Assembly: GCA_019239915.1 (NCBI GenBank)
Contig: JAFAZF010000079.1
Span: 1 to 47,769, forward strand
From: Sphingomonadaceae bacterium
GTDB taxonomy: Bacteria; Pseudomonadota; Alphaproteobacteria; Sphingomonadales; Sphingomonadaceae
Reading direction: 5' to 3'
DNA: 47,769 nucleotides
The notes beneath the pieces were generated by a model, which had not been told where the DNA came from, ran no database searches, and saw only the letters and a program-made list of their open reading frames with translations. The position numbers and the translations under genes were made by a program. Of this stretch, positions 26,452-47,769 are shown one piece after another (the first letter of the stretch is position 1; each line of letters opens with the position of its first letter).

Positions 26452-26588
26452 GCTGCTCCTCCCGCCATGATCGGCCGCGCCTAGCGCACGATCTTCGTCG
26501 CCGGAAACAGAAATGCCGTTGCGGCGATGGTGGCGAGGCGCCGGCTGCTCTATCCGCTGAGCGGGATGCGGACGCACGAGGCGAAGCT

Positions 26589-27371: not shown

Positions 27372-27397
27372 TCGATCGCCGAGAAGGGGAGAATGGG

Positions 27398-28279
27398 ATG
27401 AGCGAGGGGATACAGTTCGAGGAGATCGTCGACGGCCTCGCCTTTCCCGAAGGCCCGGTGGTGATGGCGGACGGGTCGGTGATCGTCGTCGAGATGGGCA
27501 CCGGACACATCACGCGCTGCTGGAGCGGGTGCAAGGAGCTGGTCGCCGATCCCGGCGGCGGCCCCAACGGCGCCGCGATCGGCCCCGACGGCGCGCTCTA
27601 CGTCTGCAACAACGGCGGCATGAACATGTCCGGTTACGGCTTTGCGGACCGCAGCGGCGGGCCGGGCCGGATCGAGCGGATCAATCTCGCCACGGGGCGG
27701 GTCGAACGGCTCTACGAGACCTGCGACGGGCGCCCGCTCTCGGCGCCCAACGATCTGATGTTCGCCGCCGACGGCAGCTTCTGGTTCACCGACCTCGGCA
27801 AGACAGGCGCCTCTTCCCGGGAGCACGGCGGGCTCTACCATGCCCGACCGGACGGCAGCATGATCCGCTGCATCCACTATGGCCCGGTCTATTATAACGG
27901 CGTCGGTCTCGCGCCCGACGAGCGCACCGTCTATGTCGCCGAGACGCCCTCGGCGCGCCTCTATGCCTTCGACATCGACGCCGCCGGCAATCCCGGCAAG
28001 CGCCGCATGATCGGCACCGCACCCGGCATGGTGATGCTGGACAGCCTCGCGATGACCGCGGCGGGCAACATCGCGGTGGCGCAGCTCTATCAGGGCGGCG
28101 TGGCAACGTTCACGCCCCAAGGCGCAGTGAGCGTGATCCGCTGCCCGGATCCGATGACCACCAACATCGCCTTCGGCGGCGAGGACATGCGGACCGCGTT
28201 CCTCACCCAATCAAAGGGCGGCCGCCTGATCCGTGCGCGCTGGCCGGAAGCCGGCCTCCGGCTGCGGTTCAACGGCTGA
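27398..28279 (+). CDS. SMP-30/gluconolactonase/LRE family protein
   Basis: A 293-residue six-bladed beta-propeller. Glu18 in LAFPEGPVV, Asn in SAPNDLMFAADGSFWFTD, and the Asp in YNGVGLAPDERTVYVAET match the metal-binding set of this family. Such enzymes hydrolyse lactones of sugars or of other cyclic intermediates; some cleave esters. The start ATG 27398 follows GAAGGGGAGAATGG. Standing just after an SDR, it fits a lactone-opening step, but the substrate is not known. It is convergent with the crotonase, 2 bp apart. Confidence 0.9.
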   Translation: MSEGIQFEEIVDGLAFPEGPVVMADGSVIVVEMGTGHITRCWSGCKELVADPGGGPNGAAIGPDGALYVCNNGGMNMSGYGFADRSGGPGRIERINLATGRVERLYETCDGRPLSAPNDLMFAADGSFWFTDLGKTGASSREHGGLYHARPDGSMIRCIHYGPVYYNGVGLAPDERTVYVAETPSARLYAFDIDAAGNPGKRRMIGTAPGMVMLDSLAMTAAGNIAVAQLYQGGVATFTPQGAVSVIRCPDPMTTNIAFGGEDMRTAFLTQSKGGRLIRARWPEAGLRLRFNG

Positions 28280-32563: not shown

Positions 32564-35206
32564 TTAGCGCGCGTCGCTGCCGAAGCGATACTTGAGGCTG
32601 AAGCCGAACATCCGCGGCGCGCCATAGATGTTCGAAGCGGTACCCACCGACGACGCCTGCGTCAGATCGTTGCTGCCGATCCGATACAGCCGGTTCAGCG
32701 CATTGGTCATGAAGAAGCCGAGGTCGAACGGCTTGCCGTACACGTTGGTCCAGCTGACGTTGAGATCGAGGAGACCATAAGGACGCTCGACCGCCAGCGG
32801 ATTGAGCGTGCTCGTGTCGTTGAGCGCGATCGACGACTGATGATACCATTGCGCGCCGACGACCACCTTGCCCATGCCCGGATCGAGCGGAAGCGTATAA
32901 TCGGCGGTCAGCGTGTACTGGAACTTCGGCGTATAGGCGAAGCGGTTGAACGGGCAGAAGGACGCGTTCGTCGTCGCTCCCGCCGGGTTGCAGGCAATCG
33001 GATCGTAGCTGACGTTCTTGTCGAACTTGGCGTCCGTATAGGCGAAGCTGCCGCCGATCGTCAGGCTCCGGAACGGAATGATCGCGCCATCGAATTCGAT
33101 GCCCTGCACCGTGGCGTCGTCGACGTTGCGGACGAGCTGCAACGGCACCGCGCCCGGCACGACGATGCCCTTTTGGATCTTCGAATAGTCGTCGTGATAG
33201 GCCGCAAGATTCGCGCGAACCGTCGTCGAGCCCAGATGGAACTGCGACTTGATGCCGATCTCGAACGAAGTGTCGTATTCGGGGTTGTAGACTGGGCTCG
33301 TCCCCGCCGGTGCGGTCGCGTTCACACCGCCCGGACGATAGCCTTTGCTCGCCTTGAAGTAGAGGAGCGGGCCCGCTCCGCGCTTATAGGAAAGGCCCGC
33401 CTGCCAGGTCGTCGCGTTGAACGCCTGCGTAATGTGATTGCAGGAGGCTGCGCCAAAGAGGGAGGGGAAACCACCCACAGTCCCGTAACTGGTGCAGGCT
33501 CCGTGCGGGATCGGCGCGTAAGTCGCCGCAGCGATCCCGGCAGCCGTAGCTGGAACGAATGCCGCGGGCACACCCTCCAACGGCAGGATACCAGTCAAAA
33601 CAGTAGCCAATTGCGCGGGAGTACCAGCGACGGGACGCAGATAGGTCGCCTCGACCGTGTCGACGGTGTCATGCGTATAGCGCACGCCGCCGTTCACCTT
33701 CAGACCCGGCAGCAACTGCTCCAGATCATATTCGCCGGATGCGTAGAGCGCCTTCGATGTCGTCGTCGAATATTGGACGCCGTCGCGCTCGAGAATGCTG
33801 AAGGTGAGCGTATCGTTCTCGAACTGGCGGCCACCCGGGTCCTGCTTGTCGGCATAGCCGCCGATCGCCCAGGTCAGGTGATTGTTGAACGACTTGCCGG
33901 AGAGGCGAAGCTCTTCGCTATACTGCTTCTGCGAATTGAACAGCAGGCCGCTACCCGGCGTGCCGCAGGCCGAGTGGCAGGTCTCGACGGTGCCGAGATT
34001 GTCGCCGCTGAAGCTGGACGCCTCGTCGTCGCGAACGTCGATATAGCCGAAGATGTTGGTCAGCGTCAGCGCATCGCTGAGCTGCGCCACCGTCCGGTTG
34101 ACGACATAGAGGTTCTTGCGGTTGTCGAAGCTCGGATAGGTCTGGAAGACCTTGCGGGGCCCGAGCGCCTGCTGGTTCGCAAGCTCGCGATTGATCTCGG
34201 TGATGTAGCTCGCTGCGGTATAGGGAGTCAGCCCGGGTGCGAAGGGATGCACCGTGCCGTTGCCATCGATCCCGTAGACGCCCGGGAACAGCCCCGCGAC
34301 ACCGCCGACCTGCGCGGCAAGCACAGGATCGTTCACCGCCGCCAGCACGTCGGCCGTGCCGTTGTCGTGGGTGTGCTGGTAAGACACCGTGGTGGTGTTG
34401 GTCAGCGTATCGGTGAGGTTGAGCTTGAGCCCGACGCGGTAAGACTCGTAACGCTGATCGTCGAGATCCTGACCATTGTAGAGGTTCGTGGTGAAGCCGT
34501 CGCGACGGCCGATCTCGAACGCGCCGCGCAGCAGCACCTTGTCCTCGACGATCGGCACGTTGAGCGCGCCATCGAAGATTTTAGCGTTGTAATCGCCGAG
34601 CTTCACCTGAGCATAGCCGCCGAACTCGTTCTTCGGCTCCTGCGCGGTGACCATGACGTTGCCGCCATCGGTGACGCGGCCGAAGTTGACGCCCTGCGGG
34701 CCGCGCAGCACCTGCACGTTGGCGAGGTCGAAGAACTGACCCGCGGTCAGCTGCGTGATCGGCACTTCGTCGAAATAGGTGATCACCGCCGGGAACAGCG
34801 TGCCATAGGCGAAGCCTTGGCCGCGGATCGAATAGGTGACGTTGTTGCGGTCGCCGATCGACGCGGCAACGCTCAGGCCGGGAACGTCCTTGGTCAGATC
34901 GGTCGGCGTGAACGTACCCTTCGAGTTGAGGGTCGCCGGCGCGAGCACCGACACCGAGATCGGCACGTTCTGGAGGCGCTCGTTCGAGCGGCGTGCCGTA
35001 ACGATGATATCGCCGGAGGCCGGGGTGCCCGCAGCGTCCGCATCGGTCCGGCCCGGCGCGGCGGGAGCCGCCTCCGGCGCATTGGACGAGGCGGCATTCG
35101 GCATGGCCTGGGGCGCGCCGGGAGGCGCGTCCTGCGCCATCACTGCGGTGGCCGGGAACGCGATGAGCGCGCCGGAAATGAGCAGACGGTTTTTCAGCGA
35201 AACCAT
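32564..35206 (-). CDS. TonB-dependent outer membrane receptor
   Basis: An 880-residue receptor. A signal peptide (KNRLLISGALIAFPATAVMAQ) precedes an Ala/Pro-rich linker, the TonB-box-like region and the plug (DIIVTARRSNERLQNVPISVSVL, then QVLRGPQGVNFGRVTDGGNV). A 22-strand barrel follows, ending FSLKYRFGSDAR. There is no N-terminal STN signalling domain. In sphingomonads this long-loop type of receptor often takes up large hydrophobic or plant-derived compounds rather than siderophores. It is divergent from the CoA ligase operon, suggesting shared control. A sigma70-like promoter is seen upstream. Confidence 0.94.
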   Translation of the reverse strand: MVSLKNRLLISGALIAFPATAVMAQDAPPGAPQAMPNAASSNAPEAAPAAPGRTDADAAGTPASGDIIVTARRSNERLQNVPISVSVLAPATLNSKGTFTPTDLTKDVPGLSVAASIGDRNNVTYSIRGQGFAYGTLFPAVITYFDEVPITQLTAGQFFDLANVQVLRGPQGVNFGRVTDGGNVMVTAQEPKNEFGGYAQVKLGDYNAKIFDGALNVPIVEDKVLLRGAFEIGRRDGFTTNLYNGQDLDDQRYESYRVGLKLNLTDTLTNTTTVSYQHTHDNGTADVLAAVNDPVLAAQVGGVAGLFPGVYGIDGNGTVHPFAPGLTPYTAASYITEINRELANQQALGPRKVFQTYPSFDNRKNLYVVNRTVAQLSDALTLTNIFGYIDVRDDEASSFSGDNLGTVETCHSACGTPGSGLLFNSQKQYSEELRLSGKSFNNHLTWAIGGYADKQDPGGRQFENDTLTFSILERDGVQYSTTTSKALYASGEYDLEQLLPGLKVNGGVRYTHDTVDTVEATYLRPVAGTPAQLATVLTGILPLEGVPAAFVPATAAGIAAATYAPIPHGACTSYGTVGGFPSLFGAASCNHITQAFNATTWQAGLSYKRGAGPLLYFKASKGYRPGGVNATAPAGTSPVYNPEYDTSFEIGIKSQFHLGSTTVRANLAAYHDDYSKIQKGIVVPGAVPLQLVRNVDDATVQGIEFDGAIIPFRSLTIGGSFAYTDAKFDKNVSYDPIACNPAGATTNASFCPFNRFAYTPKFQYTLTADYTLPLDPGMGKVVVGAQWYHQSSIALNDTSTLNPLAVERPYGLLDLNVSWTNVYGKPFDLGFFMTNALNRLYRIGSNDLTQASSVGTASNIYGAPRMFGFSLKYRFGSDAR

Positions 35207-35595: not shown

Positions 35596-37221
35596 ATGGA
35601 TGCTGAGGAATTCGCCGCGCTCGGGTTGATCGCGCCGGCACAGCGGGTCGATCCGCCGCTCGGCCCGCGCGACATCGCCTCGATGCTCGGGCCCCGCGTC
35701 GCCGAGCAACCGGATGCCGAAGCGATCGTCGATCCCGGCAGGCGGCTGACCTATGCCGCGCTCGATCGCGCAATCGCTGCCGCCGCCCATTTGTTCGAGC
35801 GCCTCGGCGTCGAACCCGGCGATCGCGTCGCCGCGTCGCTGCCCAACGCCTGCGACATCGTCGTCGCCTTCATGGCGGTGCAGCGCCTGGGCGCGATCTG
35901 GGTCGGCATCAACACGATCCTCTCGCCCAACGAGAAGCGGCACATCCTCGGCCATTCCGAGACCAAGCTGCTGCTCACCGACAGCCGCTTCGCGGCGCCG
36001 TTCGATGCGCTGCGGGCGGATCTGCCGAAGCTCGATCATCTCCTCGTGATCGACGACGCGGCGCGCGATCTCGGCTGGGCGACGGTGTTCGCGGCGACGG
36101 ACGCGCCCGCGATCGCAGCGCGCGAGATCGATCCGTTCGCGCCGGCCGCGATCATGTACACCAGCGGCACCACCGGCGTGCCGAAGGGCGTGGTCCACAG
36201 CCAGCACAACATGATCACGGTCTGCGCCGCCGGCTCGAGCTTCGGAATGATGCACCCGGAAATGAAGCGCGGCGTGGTGCTGCCGCTCACGATCACCAAC
36301 CTGATGATCCTCGGCCCGCTGGTCGCCTTCTGGAACGGCACGAGCTGCGCCTGCGGGCAATCGGTCAAGATCGACCCGCTGGTCGACTGGATCGCGCAGG
36401 AGAAGGTCGGAACCTGCGCCACCGTGCCGACGATCGTGCACGATCTGCTCCAATCGGGCCGCGATCTGCCGCAGGGCTTCATCATGGGCGCCGGCGGCGC
36501 GCCGCTGCCGATGCCGATCCGCAACGCGTTCAAGGCGCGCTACGGCTATCCGCTCGGCGGCAGCTACGGGTTGACCGAGGCGCCGACGGTGGTGACCGAA
36601 ACGCGCGGCATCGAGCCGCCGTCCGGATCGAGCGGGCTGCCGCTGCCGCATCTCGTCGTGACGATCCGTGCCGAAGACGGCACCGTGCTGCCCACCGGCG
36701 AGGTCGGCGAAGTGTGCGTCTCGGGTGTGACCGAGGGGCCGTGGGCGGGCGTCTACACGCCGGCGCTCGGCTACTGGAAGGATGGCGACAAGAGTACCGT
36801 CCTGCTGCGCGGCGGCATTCTCCACACCAGCGACATGGGGCGGCTGGACGAGAATGGCTGGATCTATCTCGCCGATCGCAGCTCCGAGCTGATCCTGCGC
36901 GGCGGCTCCAACGTCTATCCGGCCGAGGTCGAACGCGTGCTGCACGAGCATGCGGGGGTCGCCGCCTGCGCGCTGGTCGGCAAGCCCGACGAGCGGCTCG
37001 GCATGCGTACCGTCGCCTTCATCCAGCCGGTGCGCACCGGCGAAGAAGACCAGATTCGTGCCGATCTCATCGTGCTGTGCCAGGAGTCGCTCGCCCGCTA
37101 TAAGCAGCCCGACGAGTGGATCTTCGTCGAGCAGTTCCCGCGCAATGCGATGGGCAAGATTGTCAAGCCGGCGCTGCGCGCGCAGCTCGCCGAGCAACAA
37201 GCCGAGCGACAGGAGGCATAG
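35596..37221 (+). CDS. AMP-forming acyl-CoA synthetase (ANL superfamily)
   Basis: A 541-residue adenylate-forming ligase that activates a carboxylic acid to its CoA thioester. Core motifs are the P-loop YTSGTTGVPKG (188-198), GLTEAPTVVTETRG, GYWKDGDKS, the SDMGRLDENGWIYLADRSSELILRGG hinge region, NVYPAEVERVL, and the C-terminal catalytic Lys521 in NAMGKIVK. ATG 35596 is preceded only by a weak AGG. It heads a plus-strand run that continues through 40007. Its substrate is unknown, but the neighbours suggest an oxidised hydrophobic compound. Confidence 0.93.
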   Translation: MDAEEFAALGLIAPAQRVDPPLGPRDIASMLGPRVAEQPDAEAIVDPGRRLTYAALDRAIAAAAHLFERLGVEPGDRVAASLPNACDIVVAFMAVQRLGAIWVGINTILSPNEKRHILGHSETKLLLTDSRFAAPFDALRADLPKLDHLLVIDDAARDLGWATVFAATDAPAIAAREIDPFAPAAIMYTSGTTGVPKGVVHSQHNMITVCAAGSSFGMMHPEMKRGVVLPLTITNLMILGPLVAFWNGTSCACGQSVKIDPLVDWIAQEKVGTCATVPTIVHDLLQSGRDLPQGFIMGAGGAPLPMPIRNAFKARYGYPLGGSYGLTEAPTVVTETRGIEPPSGSSGLPLPHLVVTIRAEDGTVLPTGEVGEVCVSGVTEGPWAGVYTPALGYWKDGDKSTVLLRGGILHTSDMGRLDENGWIYLADRSSELILRGGSNVYPAEVERVLHEHAGVAACALVGKPDERLGMRTVAFIQPVRTGEEDQIRADLIVLCQESLARYKQPDEWIFVEQFPRNAMGKIVKPALRAQLAEQQAERQEA

Positions 37222-37223
37222 GA

Positions 37224-37880
37224 ATGGACGAGCTGCTGCTGGTGCTGAGCAACGGGAAGCCGGGACGCGAGGCCGACTATGTCCAATGGTATAGCTCGCA
37301 ACATCTCGACGACGTCAAGCGGGTGCCGGGCGTTGCCGATGGCGGGCTCTACACGATTACGAAGCCGGACGATGCCGCGCGCTGGAGCGTGGCGGCGCGC
37401 TATCCGCTGTCGCAGCCGGTCGAATCGGTGCTGCAGGGCTTGTTCGAACGCACCGGCACGGACGCGATGCCGCTGACCGACGCCATCGACGGCAAGAGCG
37501 TGCTGATGATGGGCGCGACGCCCATCGGCCCACGCGTGCGCGCCGAGGGTGTTGACGATCGCCAAGATGGCGTGATCTTCGTTGTGCTGACCAACGCAAC
37601 CGAAGGCGACGACGACGATTTCAACGGCTGGTACAGCGACCAGCATATTCCGGACGTGCTCGCTGTCCCCGGCTTCATCGCGGCGCAGCGTTTCAAGGTC
37701 GCCGCGGAGACGGCCGGCAAGGCGAGCCCGTGGCGCTACCTGTCACTCTACGAGGTGGCGCCGGAGGATCTCGACGCCAGCATGGCGGAGCTCCAGGCGC
37801 GCGCCGGCGGCGAGAAGATGCCGCTCTCGCCAACGCTGGCGAACGACGTCTACGCCACGCTGTTCTCGCGCGCGGCGTGA
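37224..37880 (+). CDS. Duplicated ferredoxin-like (EthD/dimeric alpha-beta barrel) protein
   Basis: A 218-residue protein with two related halves. YVQWYSSQHLDDVKRVPGV (about 15-33) recurs as FNGWYSDQHIPDVLAVPGF (about 133-151), each followed by a strand and helix as in dimeric alpha-beta barrel domains such as EthD. A single chain would thus imitate the usual dimer. EthD-like proteins appear in ether, quinone and steroid degradation operons, usually with unclear roles. ATG 37224 is 2 bp after the ligase stop, with AGGAGG. It overlaps the next gene by GTGA. Confidence 0.75.
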   Translation: MDELLLVLSNGKPGREADYVQWYSSQHLDDVKRVPGVADGGLYTITKPDDAARWSVAARYPLSQPVESVLQGLFERTGTDAMPLTDAIDGKSVLMMGATPIGPRVRAEGVDDRQDGVIFVVLTNATEGDDDDFNGWYSDQHIPDVLAVPGFIAAQRFKVAAETAGKASPWRYLSLYEVAPEDLDASMAELQARAGGEKMPLSPTLANDVYATLFSRAA

Positions 37881-38719
37881 CGGGCGTTCCCCCCCTTCCG
37901 CGTCTCGGGCGGCTGCAGGGACGGACGGCGATCGTGACGGGAGCCGGATCGCTTGGCGCTGGGTTCGGCACCGGCAAGGCGATCGCGCTGCTCTTCGCCT
38001 CCGAGGGCGCGCGGGTCGCACTGGTCGATCTCGATCGTGATCGTGCCGAGGAGACCCGTGCCCAGATCGCGGCGGAAGGTGGCGACTCCGCCGTGGTCGT
38101 CGGCAGCGTGATCGACGCCGAGGATTCGCTGCGTATCGTAGCCGAAGCGGTGGAGGCGCTGGGATCGCTCGACATCCTCGTCAACAATGTCGGGATGGGC
38201 GCCGGTGCCGGCCGGCTGGAGACGATCGATCCGGCGGCGTGGCAGCGCGGCATGGACCTGAACATCGCCAGCGCCTTCCTGATGACCCGCGCCGCTATCC
38301 CTGCCCTGCTTGCCGGCGCCGGCAAGGCAATCGTCAACATCGCCTCCGTTGCCGGCATTCGCGCGCACGGTAGCGCATCCTACGGGCCGGCCAAGGCGGC
38401 GATGATCCAGTTCACGCGCGAGACCGCGGTGATGTATGGCGCCGAAGGCATTCGCGCGAACGTGATCGCACCGGGCCACATCATGACGCCGCTCGTGGAA
38501 AAATTCTCCGCGCCGGCCGCCCGCGACAACCGGCGCCGCGTCGGCGCGCTCTCCTCGGTTGAAGGCGACGCCTGGGACATCGCTTATGCGGCGCTGTTCC
38601 TCGCGAGCTCCGAGGCGCGCTTCATCAGTGGCGTCTGCCTGCCGGTGGATGGCGGCGTCACCCAGATCGGGCCGCTCGCCGCCTTCGAACGAATGACAGG
38701 GGAATCGATGACGGCCTGA
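37877..38719 (+). CDS. Short-chain dehydrogenase/reductase with extended glycine motif
   Basis: A 280-residue SDR. The cofactor motif is stretched: TGAG-SLGAGF-GTGKAIA rather than TGxxxGxG. The rest is normal: NNVG after DILV, Ser in NIASVAGIR and the catalytic Tyr/Lys in YGPAK, followed by VDGGVTQ. This stretched loop is known in some SDR subgroups and may alter cofactor choice. GTG 37877 overlaps the preceding stop (GTGA), so it is translationally coupled to the EthD-like gene. Confidence 0.88.
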   Translation: MTGVPPLPRLGRLQGRTAIVTGAGSLGAGFGTGKAIALLFASEGARVALVDLDRDRAEETRAQIAAEGGDSAVVVGSVIDAEDSLRIVAEAVEALGSLDILVNNVGMGAGAGRLETIDPAAWQRGMDLNIASAFLMTRAAIPALLAGAGKAIVNIASVAGIRAHGSASYGPAKAAMIQFTRETAVMYGAEGIRANVIAPGHIMTPLVEKFSAPAARDNRRRVGALSSVEGDAWDIAYAALFLASSEARFISGVCLPVDGGVTQIGPLAAFERMTGESMTA

Positions 38720-38744
38720 CCGCCGATAAAAGCGAGGGGATAGC

Positions 38745-40007
38745 ATGACCGACACCGCCGCGCTGGCCGCTGGCCCACCATCCGGGCGTTCCGAGTTTGC
38801 CACCGGATGGCCGATCCTGCTCGCGGGCGCATTGGGCACCGGCACCACGGGCGTCCATTTCATGGTCGTCGGAGCGATGCTCAAGCCGCTCCACGCCGCC
38901 TATGGCTGGAGCCGCGGCGAAACCGCCTTCGCGCTGACCATTGCCACGATCGTGATGTCGCTCGTGCACGTGCCGACGGGCATCCTCGTCGATCGGCTCG
39001 GGCCGCGGACGGTGCTGGTTCCGGGTACCTTCGTGTTCGGGGTCAGCGTCGCGCTGCTCGGCATCGCGGGACCATCATTATGGTCATGGTATGCCGCCTA
39101 CGCGGTGTTCAGCGTCATGGTGGTGCCGGCGAGTGCCTTCGTCTGGATGAACGCCATCGCACGCCACTTCGTCGTGAAGCGCGGGCTTGCGCTCGGGCTC
39201 GCGCTGGTCGGCTCGGCGCTATTGACCGCGATCGTTCCCGGTCTCGTCCTCAAGCTCGTCGATAGCTACGGCGTTCGCGGCGCCTATTTCGCCATGGCGG
39301 CCGGCGCGTGGGCACTGACGTTTCCGTTCGCACTGCTGTGTATCCCCCGCTCGATGGGGAGCGGCGGCGACCCGGTCCATGCGCCGGCGCCGGTGATCGA
39401 CCGCAAGGAGCGCTGGACGCTGTTGCTCGGATCGCGCTTCTGGCGGATCGCGCTCGCGGTCTGCCTGGTATCGCTCTGGATCGGCACCTTCTCGGTTCAC
39501 TTCCAGCCGATGCTCACCGACGCCGGCCTGTCGCCGGGTGATGCGGCGCGCGAGGCGGTGTTCCTGGGCATCTGCATGATGTTCGGATCGCTGGGTACCG
39601 GCGTGCTGTTCGATCGCTTCAGTCCGCGCTTCGTCGCGGCGATCAGCTACTGGGTTCCGGCGATCGCGAGCGCGCTGCTGCTCGGCTTCCACGGCAGCTT
39701 CGTCCTGGGAGCGGTGATCGCCGCGCTGGTAGGGCTGGGGCTCGGCGGCGCGGTCAACGTCCTCTCCTACGTCGGCAGCTATTATTTCGAGCTGCGCCAT
39801 TATGGCTTCGTGCTCGGCGTGCTCTACGCGATCCTCGCAGTCTCGATCGGCTTCGGCGGCTGGCTCGCCGGCGCGCTGTTCGATGCGCTGGGTAGCTATC
39901 AGCTCGTGCACATGCTGCTGATCGCCGGATCGCTGATCGCCGGCCTGCTGCTGCTCTCGCTGCGGCGGGCACCGGACCTGACGCTGCAACCCGTCGCCGC
40001 CGCCTGA
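38745..40007 (+). CDS. Major facilitator superfamily transporter (second)
   Basis: A 420-residue, twelve-helix MFS protein of the monocarboxylate-transporter-like kind, with the loop VPTGILVDRLGPRTVLVPG after helix 2, the usual place of the GxLaDrxGrr motif. The mid loop around residues 200-215 is short and charged. ATG 38745 has GAGGGG upstream. It ends the plus-strand run that begins with the CoA ligase, 33 bp from the convergent SDR operon. It could import the compound or export a product. Confidence 0.88.
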   Translation: MTDTAALAAGPPSGRSEFATGWPILLAGALGTGTTGVHFMVVGAMLKPLHAAYGWSRGETAFALTIATIVMSLVHVPTGILVDRLGPRTVLVPGTFVFGVSVALLGIAGPSLWSWYAAYAVFSVMVVPASAFVWMNAIARHFVVKRGLALGLALVGSALLTAIVPGLVLKLVDSYGVRGAYFAMAAGAWALTFPFALLCIPRSMGSGGDPVHAPAPVIDRKERWTLLLGSRFWRIALAVCLVSLWIGTFSVHFQPMLTDAGLSPGDAAREAVFLGICMMFGSLGTGVLFDRFSPRFVAAISYWVPAIASALLLGFHGSFVLGAVIAALVGLGLGGAVNVLSYVGSYYFELRHYGFVLGVLYAILAVSIGFGGWLAGALFDALGSYQLVHMLLIAGSLIAGLLLLSLRRAPDLTLQPVAAA

Positions 40008-40040: not shown

Positions 40041-40865
40041 CTAAGCCTTGGTGCGGGCGTGCATGCGATCGGCCGGGAAGCGCGCATTGATGGTGGTGCC
40101 GCCGTCGGCGCGCAGCTCGCTGCCGGTGATGAAGGCTGCTTCGTCGGAAGCGAGGAACAGCGCCGGGCCGGCGATATCCTCCGGCCGCCCGAACCGGGTC
40201 AGATGGCGCACGCGCAGCAGCGGCCCCGCCTGCTCATCCGCGATCAGCCTCTCGGCGACATCGGAGGTGATGATCAGGCCGAGCAGGATCGCGTTCACCC
40301 GGATGCCGTGCGGCGCATATTCCACCGCCATCGAGCGGGTCGTCGCGTTGATCGCGCCCTTGGCGGCGGTGTAGGCGTCGGCGCCCTCCACGCCCGCCAC
40401 CGAAACGGTCGATGATATGTTGACGACCGAACCGCCGCGGCCGCTCTCGATCATCGCCGAGATACCGTAGCGGCACATCCAGAAATAGCCGTAGAGCGCG
40501 CCGCGCCACAGACTGTCCATGTCCGCCGTGGCGAGGCGCGTGACCGGCGCGTCGACGCGTTCCGAACCACGCTGCAGCTCGGTGGGGCTGGCGTTGTTGA
40601 CGAGGATGTCGAGCCCGCCAAAGGCGGCGACGGTGCCGGCGACGAGCGCATCGACCTGCGCTTCATCCGAGATATCGGCGCGGAGGAAGGTGGCGATGCC
40701 GCCCGCCGCCCCGATCTCGGCAGCGATCGCGCGTCCGCGCGCCTCGTTGCGCCCGGTGACGACGACCTTCGCCCCTTCTGCGGCGAAGCGGCGTGCGATT
40801 GCCGCCCCGCAGCCCGCGGTCGACCCGGTGACGAGCGCGACCCTGCCCTCCAGCCGCCCGCTCAT
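40041..40865 (-). CDS. Short-chain dehydrogenase/reductase (last gene of the SDR operon)
   Basis: A 274-residue SDR: TGSTAGCG at the N-terminus, LVNNASPTE, catalytic Ser in NISSTVS 13 residues before Tyr in YTAAK, and LRADGGTTINARFP near the end. The pocket region ERVDAPVTRLATADMDSLWRGALYGYF is longer than usual, suggesting a bulky substrate. ATG 40863-40865 overlaps the stop of the upstream SDR (ATGA). It is the last gene of the minus-strand operon. Confidence 0.9.
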   Translation of the reverse strand: MSGRLEGRVALVTGSTAGCGAAIARRFAAEGAKVVVTGRNEARGRAIAAEIGAAGGIATFLRADISDEAQVDALVAGTVAAFGGLDILVNNASPTELQRGSERVDAPVTRLATADMDSLWRGALYGYFWMCRYGISAMIESGRGGSVVNISSTVSVAGVEGADAYTAAKGAINATTRSMAVEYAPHGIRVNAILLGLIITSDVAERLIADEQAGPLLRVRHLTRFGRPEDIAGPALFLASDEAAFITGSELRADGGTTINARFPADRMHARTKA

Positions 40866-41629
40866 TGCGGAATGCCGATGCGCGGCAGGTGGCGCGCGCC
40901 GCCATCCATGCAGATCGTCTCGCCGGTGATGTACCGCGCGCCGTCCGATGCGAGGAACAGCACGGCCTCGGCGACCTCGGACGGCTCGGCGACGCGGCCC
41001 ATCGGGCGGGCGCGGCCGATCGCCTCGAGAGCGGCGGCGCCGGCCGCGCGCTCGAGCAGCGGCGTCCGCGTCGGGCCGGGCGCGACGCTGTTCACGCGGA
41101 TGCCGTTGCCGGCATATTCGTTCGACGCCGTCTTGCTCAGGCCTTCGACGGCATGTTTGCTCGCGGCATAGAAGCCGCCGCCGAGCGTGCCGCTGAACGC
41201 CGCCATCGAGCCGATGTTCACGATCGTGCCGCCGGTCTCCTGCATCAGCATCTGCTTGATCTCCATCTGCATCGCCAGCCAGAGGCCGCGAACGTTGACC
41301 GCGAATACCGCATCGAAATGCGCGATCGTCTCTTCCGCGAGCCGCACGCCCTTCTCGGCACTGGCGAGCGAGTTCACGGCGATGTCCAGCCCCCCGAAGC
41401 GCTCGCGCACCGTCGCTCCCAGTGCGTCCACCGAAGCCGCATCGGTGACGTCGACGCGATGGAAGCTCGCCTCGCTGCCCTGCGCGCGCAGACCGCGTGC
41501 AATCTCCTCGCCATCGTCGCGCCTGCCCGCGATCAGCACCCGCGCGCCTGCCCGTGCAAGAGCGTCGGCACAGGCCAAGCCAATGCCCGAGGTGCCCCCG
41601 ATTACGAGCGCGGTGCGGCCGTGAAGCAC
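40862..41629 (-). CDS. Short-chain dehydrogenase/reductase with altered motifs
   Basis: A 255-residue SDR. The usual TGxxxGxG is IGGTSGIG here and the NNAG motif is NSLA (DIAVNSLASAEKG), while Ser in NIGSMAA and the YAASK tetrad are intact. ETICMDGGA near the end is typical. The changes are in structural positions near the cofactor, so a different cofactor grip is possible. GTG 41629 starts five bases after the upstream DUF1214 gene, and the stop overlaps the next SDR. Confidence 0.88.
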   Translation of the reverse strand: MLHGRTALVIGGTSGIGLACADALARAGARVLIAGRRDDGEEIARGLRAQGSEASFHRVDVTDAASVDALGATVRERFGGLDIAVNSLASAEKGVRLAEETIAHFDAVFAVNVRGLWLAMQMEIKQMLMQETGGTIVNIGSMAAFSGTLGGGFYAASKHAVEGLSKTASNEYAGNGIRVNSVAPGPTRTPLLERAAGAAALEAIGRARPMGRVAEPSEVAEAVLFLASDGARYITGETICMDGGARHLPRIGIPQ

Positions 41630-41634
41630 GGCGC

Positions 41635-42846
41635 TCAGAAGCCGTAGCGGCGCAGCGACGCGTCACGCCGCCGCAGCAGCGTCGCCTGCCGCTCCTCCGC
41701 GAAGACATACGGAGTGTCCGCCGGGAGATGATCGCGCAGCTGCGCGAGCGGCACCTTCCTAACCGTAGGCACGACCCGCTTCTCGGTGCGGTACCAGCGC
41801 CACTGCGCCATGCCGACGCCGGGATCCTGCGCGTCGATCCAGTTCGGCACGCCAGGGTCTTCGAGCGAAAGAACGAGGCGGATCTTGCCGTCCGCATCGC
41901 GCCGCGCTTGCTTGTCGTTCAGCGCGCTCTGATGATGGCTGTAATCGAGATTGTGCCACCAGTAGTCGCTCAGCTGCAGGCTCCAGTAGAGCGCGTCCGG
42001 CATCTCGCTTTCGATGATGTATGCCTCACCCGGTTGGATGTCGTAGATATAGTCGAGATAGACAGCTTCGGGGTTGCCGCCCTTGTCGCCGATCACCTCC
42101 GGCGCATCGAGCGAGAGGAACGCGAAGACGTCGCCGTCACGGCCGCCCCGATCGACGATGATCTTGGTGCTGTTGAACGAGAAATCGATATGGTAGGCGA
42201 TGAAGCGCGCCGCCTTCTCGATGCGCAGCGCGACTTCGTCCTCGTCCATCAAGATGCGCGCGCGGGGATCGCGATCGAGGCATTCGATGCGGATGTCGGT
42301 ACCGATCTCGCCTTCCCAATCGAGCGAGGTCTCGCGCATGTTGATCACGATGTTGTGCGCATCGCGATCGAGCTTCACCCAGTTGCCCTCGTGACGATCG
42401 GCCGAGAGGATGACCTCGAACGCGCCGTCGGGCCCGTACTCGATCGTGTCGAAATCGAGATTGGCGATGTTCTTCGAGCTCTCGTCGCCCCAGAACCCGG
42501 CGTTGAACTGCGCGTGCAGCCAATGCGTCGTGCCGCGCCTGCCCCAGAGGCGGTAGGTGTGCGCACCGTCGATTGAGCACCAGCGATAGAGAAAGTCGGC
42601 GCAAGGCAGGCCCCAGCCCAGCTCGAACGGCAGGAACACCGAGTGGACGTAAAGCGCCGGATATTGATGCCGGGGCGCGACATAGAGCCCGAAGGCGGCC
42701 GTTTGGAGCACCTGGAGGAAATAATGCGCCTGGGCGCGCACCTTCGGATCGGCGCATTCCGGCACCGCGAGGAACCGGGCCAGCCCGTCGCGGACCGCGT
42801 CATGATAGGTCTCCCAGGCACGCTCGGCCCCGCTCGGTTCCGCCAT
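41635..42846 (-). CDS. DUF1214 domain protein (B copy)
   Basis: A 403-residue protein of the DUF1214 type common in sphingomonad and mycobacterial hydrophobic-compound clusters. No signal peptide or membrane helix is seen. Aromatic and His/Trp-rich segments stand out: RRGTTHWLHAQFNAGFWG and LQLSDYWWHNLDYSHHQSALN. The C-terminal RLVLSLEDPGVPNWIDAQDP matches RLVIARRDPGVANWLDTGG in the other copy (45358-46602), but overall identity is low. Its role is unknown. ATG 42844-42846 follows GGAGGAGG. Confidence 0.75.
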   Translation of the reverse strand: MAEPSGAERAWETYHDAVRDGLARFLAVPECADPKVRAQAHYFLQVLQTAAFGLYVAPRHQYPALYVHSVFLPFELGWGLPCADFLYRWCSIDGAHTYRLWGRRGTTHWLHAQFNAGFWGDESSKNIANLDFDTIEYGPDGAFEVILSADRHEGNWVKLDRDAHNIVINMRETSLDWEGEIGTDIRIECLDRDPRARILMDEDEVALRIEKAARFIAYHIDFSFNSTKIIVDRGGRDGDVFAFLSLDAPEVIGDKGGNPEAVYLDYIYDIQPGEAYIIESEMPDALYWSLQLSDYWWHNLDYSHHQSALNDKQARRDADGKIRLVLSLEDPGVPNWIDAQDPGVGMAQWRWYRTEKRVVPTVRKVPLAQLRDHLPADTPYVFAEERQATLLRRRDASLRRYGF

Positions 42847-42937
42847 CGTCAGCCTCCTCCGATGCGACGTGCGCCGCTTCCGTCGAGATCCCCGGGGCCG
42901 GCCCGTGCGGATCCGATCCCCCGCACGGCCGCTGCGG

Positions 42938-43729
42938 TCACGGGTACATGAACATCCCGCCATCGACCATGAAGGTCATGCCGGTCAGGAAGGCGGCGTC
43001 GTCGCTGGCGATGAAGACCGCGATGCGGCCGCCATCCTTGTAGATGTCGCCCCACCGCCGCACCGGCACCGTGAGCAGCGCCGCCTTCGATTCTTCCGGA
43101 TGCTCCTTGATGTGGTTGCGCATCGCATCGGTTTCGATCGCGGGATTATAGACGTTGCAGGTGATGCCGTACTGGCCCCATTCGCGCGCTGCCGTCCGCG
43201 TGAGGCCGCGGATCGCCTCCTTGCCGGCATTGTAAGCGACCGATCCCGCATTTCCGAACTGCCCCCAGTTCGATCCGAGATTGATGACGCGCCCGCGCCC
43301 CGATGCCTTGAGACAGGGGAAGGCCGCCTTCATGAACCGATAGCTGGCGGTGACGCCGGTCAGCAGCGTGCGATCCCATTCCTCGTCGCGGAAATCCTCG
43401 ATCCCCGTCAGCACCGGCGACGGATCGGGCTTTTCGAGCGTGCCGAACGCCTGCGCGTTGTTGATCATGATATCGAGGCCACCATAGGTCTCGACCGCCT
43501 TGGCGACCGTCGCCTTGATATGATCGTGGTTGCCGACGTCGCAGACCGTGCCGGTCGCGGTGCCGCCGGCGGCCTCGATCTCGCCCAGCGTCTCGTCGAT
43601 CGAGCCCTGGCTGCGCGAGGCGACCACCACCTTCGCTCCCTCCTTCGCGAGCTCGACCGCCATGCCCCGCCCGATGCCGCGCCCGGCACCGGTAACGATC
43701 GCTACCCTGCCCTCAAGTATTCCCGCCAT
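42938..43729 (-). CDS. Short-chain dehydrogenase/reductase (tandem copy 2)
   Basis: A 263-residue SDR with TGAGRGIG, INNAQ, catalytic Ser in NLGSNWGQ and YNAGK. The N-terminal and middle parts are nearly identical to the upstream neighbour at 43774-44565 (both have AVELAKEGAKVVVASRSQGS and a PDPSPVLT stretch). The unusual NNAQAFGT in place of NNAG is shared. ATG 43729 is preferred to a TTG two codons earlier. It is the downstream member of the tandem pair. Confidence 0.92.
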   Translation of the reverse strand: MAGILEGRVAIVTGAGRGIGRGMAVELAKEGAKVVVASRSQGSIDETLGEIEAAGGTATGTVCDVGNHDHIKATVAKAVETYGGLDIMINNAQAFGTLEKPDPSPVLTGIEDFRDEEWDRTLLTGVTASYRFMKAAFPCLKASGRGRVINLGSNWGQFGNAGSVAYNAGKEAIRGLTRTAAREWGQYGITCNVYNPAIETDAMRNHIKEHPEESKAALLTVPVRRWGDIYKDGGRIAVFIASDDAAFLTGMTFMVDGGMFMYP

Positions 43730-43773
43730 TTTCAATCATCCTTCCGAATTCGATTTTTGGTCGTCGGCATCGC

Positions 43774-44565
43774 TCAGGGCGACATGAAGTGGCCGCCATC
43801 GACCATGAAGGTCATGCCGGTGAGGAACGCGGCGTCAGGCCCGGCGATGAACACCGCGATGCGACCGGCATCCTTGAAGATGTCGCCGTAGCGACGCATC
43901 GGGATCTGCATCATCGATTGACGCGACAGCTCGGGATTGACCCGCGCATGGTTGCGCAGTGCGTCGGTCTCGACCGTCGGGTTGATGACGTTGCAGGTGA
44001 TTCCGTGCTGGCCCCATTCGCGCGCGCCGGTGCGCGTAAGGCCGCGGATCGCCTCCTTGCCGGCATTGTAGGCAACCGAACCGGCGTTGCCGACCTGACC
44101 CCATTGCGAGCCCAGGTTGATGATCCGCCCCTGCCCCGACGCCTTCAGATGCGGGAAGGCCGCCTTCATGAAACGGTAGCTTGCGGTGACGCCGGTCAGA
44201 AGCGTGCGGTCCCACTCCTCGTCGCGGAAGTCCTCGATCGGTGTGAGGACCGGCGACGGATCGGGTTTCTCCTTGGTGCCGAACGCCTGCGCGTTGTTGA
44301 CGAGGATATCGAGCCTGCCGAACGCGTCGACCGCCTTGGCGACGGTCGCGCGGATATCGCCATTCTCGCCGACGTCGCAAGGTTGGCCGACCGCCGTCCC
44401 GCCAGCCTCCGCGATGAGCTTCAGCGTCTCGTCGATCGAACCCTGGCTGCGCGAGGCGACGACCACCTTCGCGCCTTCCTTTGCGAGCTCGACCGCGATG
44501 CCGCGACCGATGCCGCGCCCCGAGCCGGTGACGATCGCCACCCTGCCGTCCAGCGTTCCTGCCAT
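43774..44565 (-). CDS. Short-chain dehydrogenase/reductase (tandem copy 1)
   Basis: A 263-residue SDR with TGSGRGIG, LVNNAQAFGT, Ser in NLGSQWGQ and YNAGK, ending MVDGGHFMSP. It is a close paralogue of the next gene downstream, of identical length and with long stretches of identity. Most differences lie in the middle-left part (residues about 47-90) and near the substrate loop (HARVNPELSRQSMMQIP against HIKEHPEESKAALLTVP). ATG 44563-44565 follows GAGGA. Confidence 0.92.
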   Translation of the reverse strand: MAGTLDGRVAIVTGSGRGIGRGIAVELAKEGAKVVVASRSQGSIDETLKLIAEAGGTAVGQPCDVGENGDIRATVAKAVDAFGRLDILVNNAQAFGTKEKPDPSPVLTPIEDFRDEEWDRTLLTGVTASYRFMKAAFPHLKASGQGRIINLGSQWGQVGNAGSVAYNAGKEAIRGLTRTGAREWGQHGITCNVINPTVETDALRNHARVNPELSRQSMMQIPMRRYGDIFKDAGRIAVFIAGPDAAFLTGMTFMVDGGHFMSP

Positions 44566-44599
44566 TCCTCAAATCCTCAGTTGATAGGGTCCTGATCGA

Positions 44600-45361
44600 T
44601 CACTTCGCGGCCCAACCGCCGTCCACCGGGATGACCAGACCGGTGACGCCCGACGATGCCGGCGAGGCCGCCCACAGGATCGCCTGCGCGATCTCCTCAG
44701 GCGTGATCAGCCGGAGCATCGGATGGAACTCGCGCACGATCAGATCGCGTTGCTCGGCCGTCATCGACTTCTCGATCGCCGGCGTCGCGGTGAGGCCGGG
44801 GGCGACGACGTTGATTCGGATCTTGTCGGGCGCGTGCATTACCGCGAGCTGCTCGCTGAGATGGACCACGCCGGCCTTGGCCGCCGTATAGGCGGGCGAG
44901 GCGAAACGCGTGACGCGAATGCCGGCGAGCGAGGCGATGTTGACGATGCTGCCGCCACCGCCGCGCAGCATCGCACGGATCGCATATTTGGTGCCGAGCA
45001 TGCAGCTGGTGAGCGATTGCCGCATGGTCGCCTCCCAGGCGTCCAGCGGGGTGTCGGCGAAGCCGGTGGCGATGCTGTCGCCCGCGCCGAAATTGCCGAC
45101 GTTGTTCACCGCGATGTCGAGCCCGCCGAACCGCGTCTCCGTCTCTTCCACCGCGCGCGCGGCATCGGCCTCGACGGTCGCGTCGGCGCGGATGAAATAG
45201 GTGCCGTCCATTGCTTTCCCGGCGGGCTCGGCGATGTCGGTGAAGGCGACCGCGGCGCCCGCCGTGCGCAACGCCGCCACCGTGGCGCGGCCGATACCGC
45301 TGCCGCCGCCGGTGACGAGCGCGACCTTGCCGTCCAGGCTGTTGGAAGTCATCGCGGTCAC
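44600..45361 (-). CDS. Short-chain dehydrogenase/reductase
   Basis: A 253-residue SDR: TGGGSGIG, the NNVGNFGAGD loop in place of NNAG, Ser in NIASLAGIR and YTAAK, ending VIPVDGGWAAK. GTG 45359-45361 overlaps the DUF1214-A stop (GTGA), which supports this start; an in-frame ATG at 45352 is an alternative. It lies between DUF1214-A and the tandem SDR pair in the operon. Confidence 0.9.
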   Translation of the reverse strand: MTAMTSNSLDGKVALVTGGGSGIGRATVAALRTAGAAVAFTDIAEPAGKAMDGTYFIRADATVEADAARAVEETETRFGGLDIAVNNVGNFGAGDSIATGFADTPLDAWEATMRQSLTSCMLGTKYAIRAMLRGGGGSIVNIASLAGIRVTRFASPAYTAAKAGVVHLSEQLAVMHAPDKIRINVVAPGLTATPAIEKSMTAEQRDLIVREFHPMLRLITPEEIAQAILWAASPASSGVTGLVIPVDGGWAAK

Positions 45362-46602
45362 TCGGTGATCCGCCGCGCATAGGCGGCGAGACGGGCATCG
45401 CGCTGGGCCTTGCGCTGCGCGGCATCGAACCAGCGCGTGTCGCCGGGCAGGTCGCGCTTGAGCCGATCCTGCGTCGACATGGTGAGCCGCGCGTCAAGGC
45501 CGCCGTTGAGCGGGTTGGCGGGAATGTTCTGCCAGCGCAGGATCATGAACACGTTCTCGGCACCGCCGGTGTCGAGCCAGTTGGCGACGCCGGGATCGCG
45601 CCGCGCGATGACGAGCCGGATGCGGCCATCACCGTCCACGACGGATTGTGTGCCGGTCAGGCTCGACTGGATCTCGTGATAGTCGAGCGAGCGGTACAGC
45701 CATTCGGTGAGCTGCACCGCGACATAGCCCGCGCCTGCCGGGTTATAGTCGAGGATCGCGACGTCGTCCTCGCCGAGACGGAAGGTGCCGTGCGAGAGGC
45801 CCTGGGTGACCAGGCCGCCGGTGCCGCGGTTCTGCGCGGGCGGCTGGAGCGTGTTCCAGTTGCGACCGCTCCAGACGTTCTGGAACCAGAAATAAAGGTG
45901 GAAGTCGTCGAGCAGGCGGAAGGCGCCGCGGGCCGCCATCTCGTCCAGGCCGATCGGATCGGCCTTCGCCGCACCGATGCGCTCGATCTGCAGGTCGAGC
46001 GGCGTCTCCGTCGCCCAGTCCATCATCGAATCGCGCACGAACAGGAACTTCACCTCGGGCGCGGTCGTCATGTGGTTGGCGCGGCCATTGGCGGGCTGGT
46101 CGTCGATGGTGACGACGAACTCACCATTGCCATCAATCTCAAGCTGATGATCCTCGATCGTCTGGACGGTCCGTGACGTGCCGTAGTTGGCGGTCAGGGT
46201 CAGCGAGACGTTGGCGGGCTTGGCATCTAGGATCCGTCCCCTGATGCGGTAAGAGGTGCCGTGGGCGATGCCGGCGAGCCGGTAGCAATTGTCGGGATTG
46301 TCGCCGCCGGTGCGCGCCGCCGGCACGTCATGTCCGTGCCAGCTGTAGCCCGGCATGAAATCGCGCACGAAGCGCGGATGCTGCGCGTCGCTCGCCGCCG
46401 CCTTGAACAGCCAGTTGTTGACATATTCGTCACAGAACGCGCCGAGCAGCGGACGCTCCGGCTCGGGGATGCGATCCCCGAAGCCCATGACGAACAGCCG
46501 CTCCACCATCATGCGGGCGTTCTTGATGCGCTCGTCGCCGAGCATCGCGGCGACGTCCGCCTCTGCCGCGAACTGGCCGGCATTGGCGATGGGATTGGTC
46601 AT
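45358..46602 (-). CDS. DUF1214 domain protein (A copy)
   Basis: A 414-residue soluble protein distantly related to the B copy (41635-42846). Features include GYSWHGHDVPAARTGGDNPDNCYRLAGI near residue 80, beta-rich middle segments (SLTLTANYGTSRTVQTIED), and the C-terminal DUF1214 block AVQLTEWLYRSLDYHEIQSSL, then RLVIARRDPGVANWLDTGG. There is no signal peptide, and the function is unknown. ATG 46600-46602 overlaps the sulfotransferase stop (ATGA), so the two are probably made together. Confidence 0.78.
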   Translation of the reverse strand: MTNPIANAGQFAAEADVAAMLGDERIKNARMMVERLFVMGFGDRIPEPERPLLGAFCDEYVNNWLFKAAASDAQHPRFVRDFMPGYSWHGHDVPAARTGGDNPDNCYRLAGIAHGTSYRIRGRILDAKPANVSLTLTANYGTSRTVQTIEDHQLEIDGNGEFVVTIDDQPANGRANHMTTAPEVKFLFVRDSMMDWATETPLDLQIERIGAAKADPIGLDEMAARGAFRLLDDFHLYFWFQNVWSGRNWNTLQPPAQNRGTGGLVTQGLSHGTFRLGEDDVAILDYNPAGAGYVAVQLTEWLYRSLDYHEIQSSLTGTQSVVDGDGRIRLVIARRDPGVANWLDTGGAENVFMILRWQNIPANPLNGGLDARLTMSTQDRLKRDLPGDTRWFDAAQRKAQRDARLAAYARRITE

Positions 46603-47769
46603 GCCCGCTTCTCCCGTTTGATCCCGAAGTGGTCCATGTAGCGCGCGAAGGTGCGGTCGATCTGCGCCTCGCTGAGGCCGAATTCGGCGAGCGTATAGAC
46701 GCGGCCCGGGCCCTTGCCGTGATGATCGGCTTCGATGTGACGCTCCATCGCGTCCCTCGCCGCGGCCGTCAGCGCGATGCCGAACTGGTCGTAGACCCGC
46801 GCCACCGTCTCGAGCGGCCGTGCCGTCAGCTCCGCGAAATGGATGTCGACGACGTTCTTCGCGTCCTTGCCCGGGCCGCTGCGCCAGTCGGTATATTGGC
46901 TGGTGGCCGCCTCCCACATTTGGAGCTGGGCAAGGCCGAGCTGCAAGGGATCATAGCCCCGGTCCGAGAACAGCCCACGCAGCGCCCGAAACAGCGTCGC
47001 GATCGAGGGCACGATCTTTCCGGGATCGCGATGGTTGACGTAGATGAGCGCGTCCGGGAACGCGATCTGCATCTCCGCCCAGGTGAACATGTGGCCAGGC
47101 GCCTTGAGCGCCCAGCGCCCGCCGGGCCGGACCGCCTGGAGGTACTGCATCATGCCCAGCTGCCAGCGATAGGCGCTCGGCGTCTTGTCGGCGACCGCCT
47201 GCTGATAGGCCGGCACGTTCCAGTAGACGTTGTAGAGCGAGGCGCAGTCGGCCTCCTGCAGGAAGATGCATTCCTCCGGCAGCGCCGCTCCGAAGGGGTG
47301 GATCTGCGTCACGTCGGGATGCGTCGTACCCTGATAGTCGAGAATCTGCTGATAGAGCGCGATGCGCTCGTCGGTCTCGCCATCATCGAGCGGCACCGGA
47401 ATTGCGGCCTCATAGGCGCGTGCGACGCGGTTGGCCGGATCCTGCGCGATAACGCCGTGGAAGAAGGTCGTGCCGGCGCGCGGCAGCCCCGTCCCGATCA
47501 GCGGCGCGACGATGCGCTGATCGTCGACCCCCGCTGTCGCCTTGCGCGCCTCGATATAGCGCAGCCGCGAGACCAGCATCGTGAACAGCCGCGTATGCGT
47601 GCGGCTCCGTCCCAGCTCCGTGACCTCGGCCGTCGCCTCGATCGCGGCGCACAGCACGGAGAGATCGTGGCGGAAGCGCTCCTCGCTCCAGCGCCGACCG
47701 CCCCAGTCGGCCAGGCCGGTGACCGTCTCCGCCTCTGCGATCAGCGTCTCAGCCGCGAGCACGGCCGAA
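46599..47769 (-). CDS. Sulfotransferase-fold protein (5' end at window edge)
   Basis: At least 387 residues of a sulfotransferase family protein. The phosphosulfate-binding loop GLPRAGTTFFH begins near residue 92 counted from GTG 47762, and the 3'-phosphate region includes ALIYVNHRDPGKIVPS. A conserved ALKAPGHMFTWAEMQIAFPDA segment lies between them. The frame stays open to the window edge, so the true start may be outside, although GTG 47762 is possible. In these catabolic clusters such proteins often accompany DUF1214 genes; whether they transfer sulfate from PAPS is not established. Confidence 0.85.
   Translation of the reverse strand, partial: SAVLAAETLIAEAETVTGLADWGGRRWSEERFRHDLSVLCAAIEATAEVTELGRSRTHTRLFTMLVSRLRYIEARKATAGVDDQRIVAPLIGTGLPRAGTTFFHGVIAQDPANRVARAYEAAIPVPLDDGETDERIALYQQILDYQGTTHPDVTQIHPFGAALPEECIFLQEADCASLYNVYWNVPAYQQAVADKTPSAYRWQLGMMQYLQAVRPGGRWALKAPGHMFTWAEMQIAFPDALIYVNHRDPGKIVPSIATLFRALRGLFSDRGYDPLQLGLAQLQMWEAATSQYTDWRSGPGKDAKNVVDIHFAELTARPLETVARVYDQFGIALTAAARDAMERHIEADHHGKGPGRVYTLAEFGLSEAQIDRTFARYMDHFGIKREKRA

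Follow-up and report, generated by a model that had tools for sequence, protein, structure and literature searches.

What would a sulfotransferase do in an operon that otherwise looks catabolic? This question is raised by eight minus-strand genes at one end of contig JAFAZF010000079.1 (GenBank assembly GCA_019239915.1), a 47,769-nucleotide stretch from a Sphingomonadaceae bacterium that is referred to here as the window. The window is an entire contig (G000:C65) of the host genome G000, which comprises 3.6 Mb in 85 contigs and is 98% complete. From position 40041 to the contig end, the genes encode, in order, a sulfotransferase, a DUF1214 (domain of unknown function) protein termed DUF1214-A, three short-chain dehydrogenases/reductases (SDR1, SDR2, and SDR3), a second DUF1214 protein (DUF1214-B), and two further SDRs (SDR4 and SDR5). 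A first-pass annotation, made from sequence alone, had described the same eight-gene minus-strand operon, and all genes are present in that order, with gaps and overlaps now measured and families assigned by Pfam. It had put forward a candidate pathway, not previously described, for the degradation or modification of a bulky hydrophobic alcohol or ketone. Our analysis supports this in part, with a catabolic system for such a compound as the candidate, and finds the pairing of sulfotransferase and DUF1214 to be conserved. Its objection that sulfation makes rather than breaks products overlooks sulfate as a leaving group, as in olefin synthase and LGS1. We propose, with a probability of about 0.45, that the operon is a catabolic set arranged round a sulfotransferase–DUF1214 module, in which a dehydrogenase acts, sulfation follows, and DUF1214 then expels the sulfate to leave an alkene.

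The features of the operon are as follows:

46599..47768, minus strand: sulfotransferase (Sulfotransfer_3), 389 codons, frame still open at the contig end; possibly starting at GTG 47762
47466..47483, minus strand: PRAGTT motif of the sulfotransferase; R97 invariant, and G99, T100, and T101 nearly invariant, in 23 sequences
47004..47030, minus strand: segment R247 to S255 of the sulfotransferase; neither of these two residues varies in 23 sequences
45358..46602, minus strand: DUF1214-A, 414 aa, with a 4-bp overlap with the sulfotransferase stop
44600..45352, minus strand: SDR1, 250 aa, or starting at GTG 45361; assigned by Pfam
43774..44565, minus strand: SDR2, 263 aa, a tandem copy of SDR3 (79% identical)
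42938..43729, minus strand: SDR3, 263 aa; assigned by Pfam
41635..42846, minus strand: DUF1214-B, 403 aa; model with a predicted local distance difference test (pLDDT) score of 92.8, fold as PDB 6ANS
41833..41859, minus strand: DPGVPNWID motif (D330-D338) of DUF1214-B, the family signature by conservation in 36 sequences
40862..41629, minus strand: SDR4, 255 aa, GTG start; assigned by Pfam
40041..40865, minus strand: SDR5, 274 aa; assigned by Pfam

The junctions between the eight genes measure, in order, -4, 5, 34, 44, 91, 5, and -4 bp, and the DUF1214-A/SDR1 junction is also a 4-bp overlap if SDR1 starts at the alternative GTG 45361. The reading frame of the sulfotransferase runs off the contig, and the operon may therefore be longer and begin further upstream.

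The proposal is carried by the pairing of the two gene families. DUF1214 relatives were searched for irrespective of sulfotransferases, and a sulfotransferase of the window's family was present in 20/28 DUF1214 regions, the window included, and in 66 of 80 named bacterial loci, which were the best 80 of 578 confirmed places. Eighteen genomes were searched whole; these were chosen from the 80 loci after their sulfotransferase content was known, and 17 of the 18 chosen loci had a sulfotransferase. In these genomes, a sulfotransferase was present within 1 kb of 60 of 74 DUF1214 genes and shared the strand in 55 cases, with 0.39 expected from copy number and genome size; the 74 remain from 75 rows, one of which was dropped as the latter half of a gene split into two entries. 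Because the genomes had been chosen after the first result was known, a recount was made without the 18 picked loci, which left 44 of 56 DUF1214 genes within 1 kb of a sulfotransferase (39 on the same strand; 0.31 expected). Conversely, 60/86 sulfotransferases of the 18 genomes were within 1 kb of a DUF1214 gene. The pairing occurs in actinobacteria and proteobacteria; the first-pass annotation had suggested a search for conserved neighbourhoods, and this one is kept across two phyla. In the host genome itself, which has approximately eleven DUF1214 genes, seven of the eleven have a sulfotransferase within 4 kb, and six of its eight strong sulfotransferases lie in DUF1214 regions. The idea of a stray sulfotransferase gene was rejected on the pairing in the 18 genomes together with these host copies.

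A larger set of 140 non-redundant DUF1214 genes (147 genes reduced at 95% identity) was assembled from the 80 loci (75 genes), named genomes (20), plasmids (13), and the window and its kin (32). The plasmid searches gave 28 and 26 records with a match, and 13 regions from 12 records were examined. Unannotated regions were processed with a codon-usage gene caller trained on 13 window genes, which may misplace starts and be less accurate where GC content is lower. A sulfotransferase was found within 8 kb of 101/140 DUF1214 genes, or 66/82 with complete flanks; for 52 of the 140 it lies within 60 bp on the same strand, with 26 overlapping. The window pair has this form, with same-strand adjacency, the 4-bp overlap, and a dehydrogenase (SDR1) next to it. 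Within 4 kb, the most frequent DUF1214 neighbours are sulfotransferases (84/140 units) and SDRs (83/140), and the gene that had been called odd is therefore a usual companion. Among 79 close pairs, the sulfotransferase is upstream of DUF1214 in 39 and downstream in 40. Since both gene orders are equally common, the association was rebuilt or kept through rearrangements and is not simply an inherited order. Distances between DUF1214 proteins correlate with those between their partners (Spearman 0.378; 77 pairs, reduced from 79 such that no sulfotransferase is used twice), a value reached in 0/2000 permutations and in 6/1000 with within-genome shuffling. Alignment A4 comprised 64 of the 80 loci and the two window proteins. 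Moreover, all ten genomes with DUF1214 among 196 of the order also have the sulfotransferase, compared to 42/196 overall (hypergeometric P 8e-8, kinship ignored); at most nine candidates per genome were scored, with E limits of 1e-40 and 1e-60.

To judge by its sequence, the window sulfotransferase is built for the use of 3'-phosphoadenosine 5'-phosphosulfate (PAPS). It matches Pfam Sulfotransfer_3 at E 9e-31 with 108 bits (cut-off 27) over profile positions 1-214 of 216. The PRxGTT motif, R247, and S255 are conserved in 23 aligned sulfotransferases, with R97, R247, and S255 invariant. We take the PRAGTT motif to be the 5'-phosphosulfate loop of PAPS-binding enzymes and R247 to S255 to be their 3'-phosphate site. 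In some units, the genes for PAPS supply are linked as well. The clearest case is Paraburkholderia sprentiae, with the order alcohol dehydrogenase-DUF1214-sulfotransferase-VOC-CysQ-CysD-CysN, and in Tsukamurella, CysD and a gene for an adenylyl-sulfate kinase lie in divergent orientation to a DUF1214-SDR-sulfotransferase trio. The sulfotransferase profile remotely reaches the structures 4GOX (listed as a polyketide synthase, E 4e-8) and 4GBM (CurM, E 5.5e-7).

The partner protein belongs to a family with a solved structure. DUF1214-B exceeds the Pfam DUF1214 cut-off of 25 with 34.2 bits; DUF1214-A falls under it with 21.5 bits and is homologous to DUF1214-B (24% identity, E 5e-16), and the mycobacterial member had no Pfam DUF1214 match at E 0.001. 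The model of DUF1214-B aligns with PDB 6ANS with template modelling (TM) scores of 0.80-0.81 and 0.88-0.89 at 27% identity, and a DUF1214 profile search matches 6ANS at E 9e-90. Thus 6ANS, an uncharacterised Burkholderia cenocepacia protein with no assigned function, shares fold and family with DUF1214-B. The DPGxxNWxD signature is found in both window copies; P331 and N335 are invariant, and D330, W336, and D338 occur in at least 34/36 sequences. Residues invariant in the 36 DUF1214 sequences include R171, R350, D84, D319, P331, and N335, and the conserved arginines would suit a sulfate ester. The next-best fold matches are VPA0735/VPA0106-type Vibrio proteins, which we take to be DUF1254-DUF1214 proteins. 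A DUF1254-type identity was ruled out by TM scores of only 0.43-0.46 by query length and a profile E of 0.1, and Pfam gave no DUF1254 match among the window proteins.

These components can be arranged into a route. First, an SDR would set the redox state of an alicyclic alcohol or ketone. Next, in the one strongly supported step, the sulfotransferase would move sulfate from PAPS to the substrate hydroxyl. DUF1214 would bind the resulting ester and expel sulfate, such that an alkene remains. Hydroxyl groups of alicyclic skeletons leave poorly, and the net effect would be removal of a hydroxyl that is not easily lost as water. The two DUF1214 genes would serve two separate units of the operon, and nearby genes for a coenzyme A (CoA) ligase, enoyl-CoA hydratase, AtuA, a major facilitator superfamily (MFS) transporter, and a TonB-dependent receptor may provide substrate uptake and the rest of the breakdown.

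There is chemical precedent for this idea. According to the excerpt of PMC3903477, a ketoreductase of olefin synthase (OLS) makes the alcohol, a sulfotransferase sulfates it from PAPS, and a thioesterase expels the sulfate to give an alkene. The order of events would be alike, with keto reduction, PAPS sulfation, and a partner that expels sulfate, and the sulfotransferases are remotely homologous. In contrast, OLS is a biosynthetic polyketide megasynthase whose thioesterase partner also decarboxylates, whereas the proposed system consists of free-standing enzymes in catabolic clusters, where DUF1214 would take over the part of the thioesterase. The operon is not itself an OLS/CurM system, as no polyketide synthase or thioesterase domains were found in its eight genes; by analogy it may act like one. 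For LGS1 of sorghum, the proposed product is a sulfate that departs as the ring closes (excerpt of PMC8713700). Hydroxyl removal is also familiar in sphingomonad steroid catabolism: Hsh2 (NTF2-like) and Hsh3 (EthD) of Sphingobium Chol11 are hydroxysteroid dehydratases that expel water at C-7, which is taken to be aided by the 3-keto system. They differ from the proposed route in the water expelled at C-7 and in their folds, and the excerpt of PMC12175502 that describes them mentions no sulfation.

A link to steroids comes from other members of the family. Mycobacterium szulgai and M. asiaticum have a DUF1214-SDR-sulfotransferase trio in identical layout (loci L152 and L157). In M. szulgai, the sulfotransferase adjoins KshA (2ZYL at E 1e-255), and FAA-hydrolase and DmpG-type aldolase genes, HsaE/HsaF-like by Pfam, lie within approximately 5 kb on the other side of the trio. 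This sulfotransferase matches PDB 2ZQ5, presumably Stf1, at E 1e-237 over 379 of 381 residues, and we take the trio to be Rv3531c-Rv3530c-Rv3529c of M. tuberculosis. A KstR motif is placed between Rv3531c and Rv3532 (PMC1995591), and Rv3529c is named sulfotransferase Stf1 and cited as acting on host signalling (PMC8882603). Among sphingomonads, Novosphingobium aromaticivorans plasmid pNL2 carries DUF1214 along with FadD3 and CysQ, and a plasmid of strain ES2-1, which is presumably an estradiol degrader, carries it along with CysQ. KshA is present in 8/10 DUF1214 genomes compared to 15/196 in the order (P 6e-9, kinship ignored); the 15 were counted at E below 1e-20, a limit chosen after seeing the table, and the Pfam cut-off gives 33/196 with 8/10 unchanged.

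Several results weigh against our proposal. The host genome has no KshA_C match. A steroid broken down along the standard route is therefore an improbable substrate for it, and standard 9,10-seco steroid degradation was rejected for the host on this ground. The mycobacterial trio and the window operon have three families in common; the trio sits with KshA and Hsa-type genes, whereas the window genome is without a KshA match. The steroid link therefore belongs to the family, and some other bulky alcohol is the more likely substrate in the host. Nearby genes for AtuA, CoA ligase, and enoyl-CoA hydratase would be compatible with a terpenoid. The proposal as a whole takes the substrate class to be steroid-like or terpenoid.

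The pairing is also incomplete. No sulfotransferase lies within 8 kb of 39/140 DUF1214 genes (58/140 have incomplete flanks) or in the stretch fetched around 4/11 of those in the host genome, and 32 of the 42 genomes of the order with the sulfotransferase lack DUF1214, with no case of the reverse there. The 39 within-genome distance comparisons alone are not significant (285/2000 shuffles as high), and the loci fetched contained no sulfotransferase–DUF1214 fusion. Some of the supporting counts have limits too. Of 84 units with a sulfotransferase within 4 kb, 66 also have an SDR or a zinc alcohol dehydrogenase in that range, which speaks for the dehydrogenase step, but SDRs are common genes and the count has no control. 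Genes for making PAPS or recycling 3'-phosphoadenosine 5'-phosphate (PAP), namely CysD, CysN, CysC, and CysQ, lie within 8 kb of 9/140 DUF1214 genes, a count with no chance baseline in which two of the nine are similar Paraburkholderia loci. Adenosine 5'-phosphosulfate (APS) kinase is found in 186/196 genomes of the order and, being nearly universal, is uninformative as a discriminating test. With regard to chemistry, the CurM and retinol dehydratase structures were matched weakly and protein-tyrosine sulfotransferases score about equal or better, so that homology neither chooses the chemistry nor points to elimination. Likewise, the close fold relatives of DUF1214 are uncharacterised and the fold gives no reaction.

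The first alternative is conjugation, in which sulfate esters would be made for detoxification, solubility, or export and DUF1214 would be a steroid-binding or carrier protein or an isomerase of the free alcohol. Sulfation is usually conjugative, and genes for MFS and TonB proteins are close by. Of the 140 DUF1214 genes, four have sulfatase genes within 8 kb, and for three of these no sulfotransferase was called in the locus (3/39 without versus 1/101 with a sulfotransferase, P 0.07). This small side observation would also fit a sulfate-ester role. Conjugation leaves the close pairing of DUF1214 and sulfotransferase in two phyla unexplained, as well as its setting among oxidative catabolic genes, and we consider it unlikely. 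On a Sphingobium plasmid, a DUF1214 gene (L068, 11815-12954) has no sulfotransferase called in its 25-kb locus, and arylsulfatase and monooxygenase-annotated genes, one of them ssuD-like, are nearby.

Sulfation and DUF1214 might instead act consecutively to another end, with DUF1214 displacing the sulfate by water to give an inverted alcohol or triggering a carbocation ring rearrangement. The same genomic evidence applies to this as to elimination, and the excerpt of the LGS1 paper (PMC8713700) describes sulfation followed by cyclisation. Inversion of an alcohol is more easily achieved by two SDRs, and several SDRs are present; we give this reading a small chance. It is still harder to suppose that this protein of sulfotransferase fold has given up PAPS for some other role. 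The closest relatives with solved structures are annotated only as putative uncharacterised proteins, but the PAPS-site residues are invariant and some units include linked genes for PAPS synthesis and for PAP phosphatase, which makes such a role improbable. An ordinary catabolic operon with genes together by chance or plasmid hitchhiking, an idea encouraged by the many copies on sphingomonad megaplasmids, is scarcely credible: the pairing greatly exceeds chance, comes in either gene order, and extends to mycobacterial genomes.

Returning to elimination, we would also extend the proposal, rather more tentatively, beyond this operon: DUF1214 proteins of the 6ANS type may be new sulfate-ester lyases, and dehydrogenase, sulfotransferase, and DUF1214 may form a general bacterial “sulfo-dehydratase” for unactivated steroid and terpenoid hydroxyls, with some eleven copies in the host and another in the mycobacterial cholesterol cluster. 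Literature searches outside subscription journals, some by titles and abstract openings, gave no DUF1214 function and no description of the sulfotransferase–DUF1214 pair; by titles and abstract openings, no catabolic system of this kind was among the matches listed for sulfation or sulfotransferases in elimination or in steroid catabolism. The excerpt of a comparative steroid paper (PMC4810484) contains neither “sulf” nor Rv3529c or Rv3531c, and neither sulfotransferase nor any DUF term occurs in a tomatine paper. The use of sulfation to create a leaving group is known; DUF1214 stands a fair chance of being a new enzyme family, and a pair that is constant across two phyla is a direct lead to new enzymology. 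If the proposal is true, sulfation is used in breaking compounds down, beyond building or conjugating them. It would provide a candidate function for an unassigned part of the cholesterol cluster in mycobacteria and for plasmid-borne hypothetical genes in sphingomonads. A further prediction is a transient sulfated intermediate, one that the usual steroid metabolite extraction would miss.

As to its origin, the operon is a local composite of two units, sulfotransferase-DUF1214-A-SDR1 and SDR2/3-DUF1214-B-SDR4-SDR5. This structure is supported by the separate occurrence of both parts. Contig C31 of the same genome has an SDR-DUF1214-SDR-SDR cassette that is 86/83/72/84% identical to SDR3/DUF1214-B/SDR4/SDR5, with no sulfotransferase called in the 19.5-kb stretch that holds it. 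Genome G040 has a counterpart of the sulfotransferase-DUF1214-A pair with an identical 4-bp overlap (59% and 47% identity). The paired functional units suggested by the first-pass annotation are supported by this separate copy of the DUF1214-B unit. None of the regions examined showed the eight genes in exactly this order. Beside the C31 cassette is an APH-type phosphotransferase-SDR-SMP-30 block that is 79-87% identical to window positions 25417-28279, which probably ties that window block to the DUF1214-B pathway. A DUF1214-A search matched in one of nine other members of the genus (G001-G009), compared to some eleven DUF1214 genes in the host; by this sequence comparison, the host set is a strong expansion or gain within its genus. 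One host copy (L050, G000:C53:4958-6159) is in two pieces in different frames and is therefore probably a broken gene or a sequencing error; another copy, with a sulfotransferase following within 5 bp, lies approximately 4 kb away.

The neighbouring features, including the convergent CoA ligase/MFS run and the TonB receptor that had been noted at first pass and are both present in the window annotation, are as follows:

35596..40007, plus strand: convergent run of CoA ligase, DUF4286 protein, SDR (by similarity), and MFS transporter
32564..35206, minus strand: TonB-dependent receptor
25417..28279: APH-type phosphotransferase, SDR, and SMP-30 lactonase-like block, 79-87% identical to locus L047; first and last gene assigned by Pfam

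All five SDR genes of the operon match Pfam adh_short and adh_short_C2 at E 4e-41 or better. NCBIfam at E 0.001 gave nothing for the sulfotransferase, DUF1214-A, or DUF1214-B, and for the SDRs none of the 25 top families per SDR (of 218 to 233) reached its own cut-off. In the window, AtuA, of the acyclic terpene utilisation family, and a ferredoxin-like domain are joined in one protein (29160-30944). The DUF4286 protein (37224-37880) adjoins the CoA ligase, and in locus L040 a DUF4286 protein also follows DUF1214. The known dehydratase Hsh3 is an EthD-type dimeric barrel, and small DUF4286 proteins may thus be of interest. Finally, APH/ecdysteroid-kinase-like phosphotransferases recur near DUF1214 genes, in the window (25417-26451) and in the plasmid loci L070, L171, and L173; phosphorylation could be a second route to hydroxyl activation.

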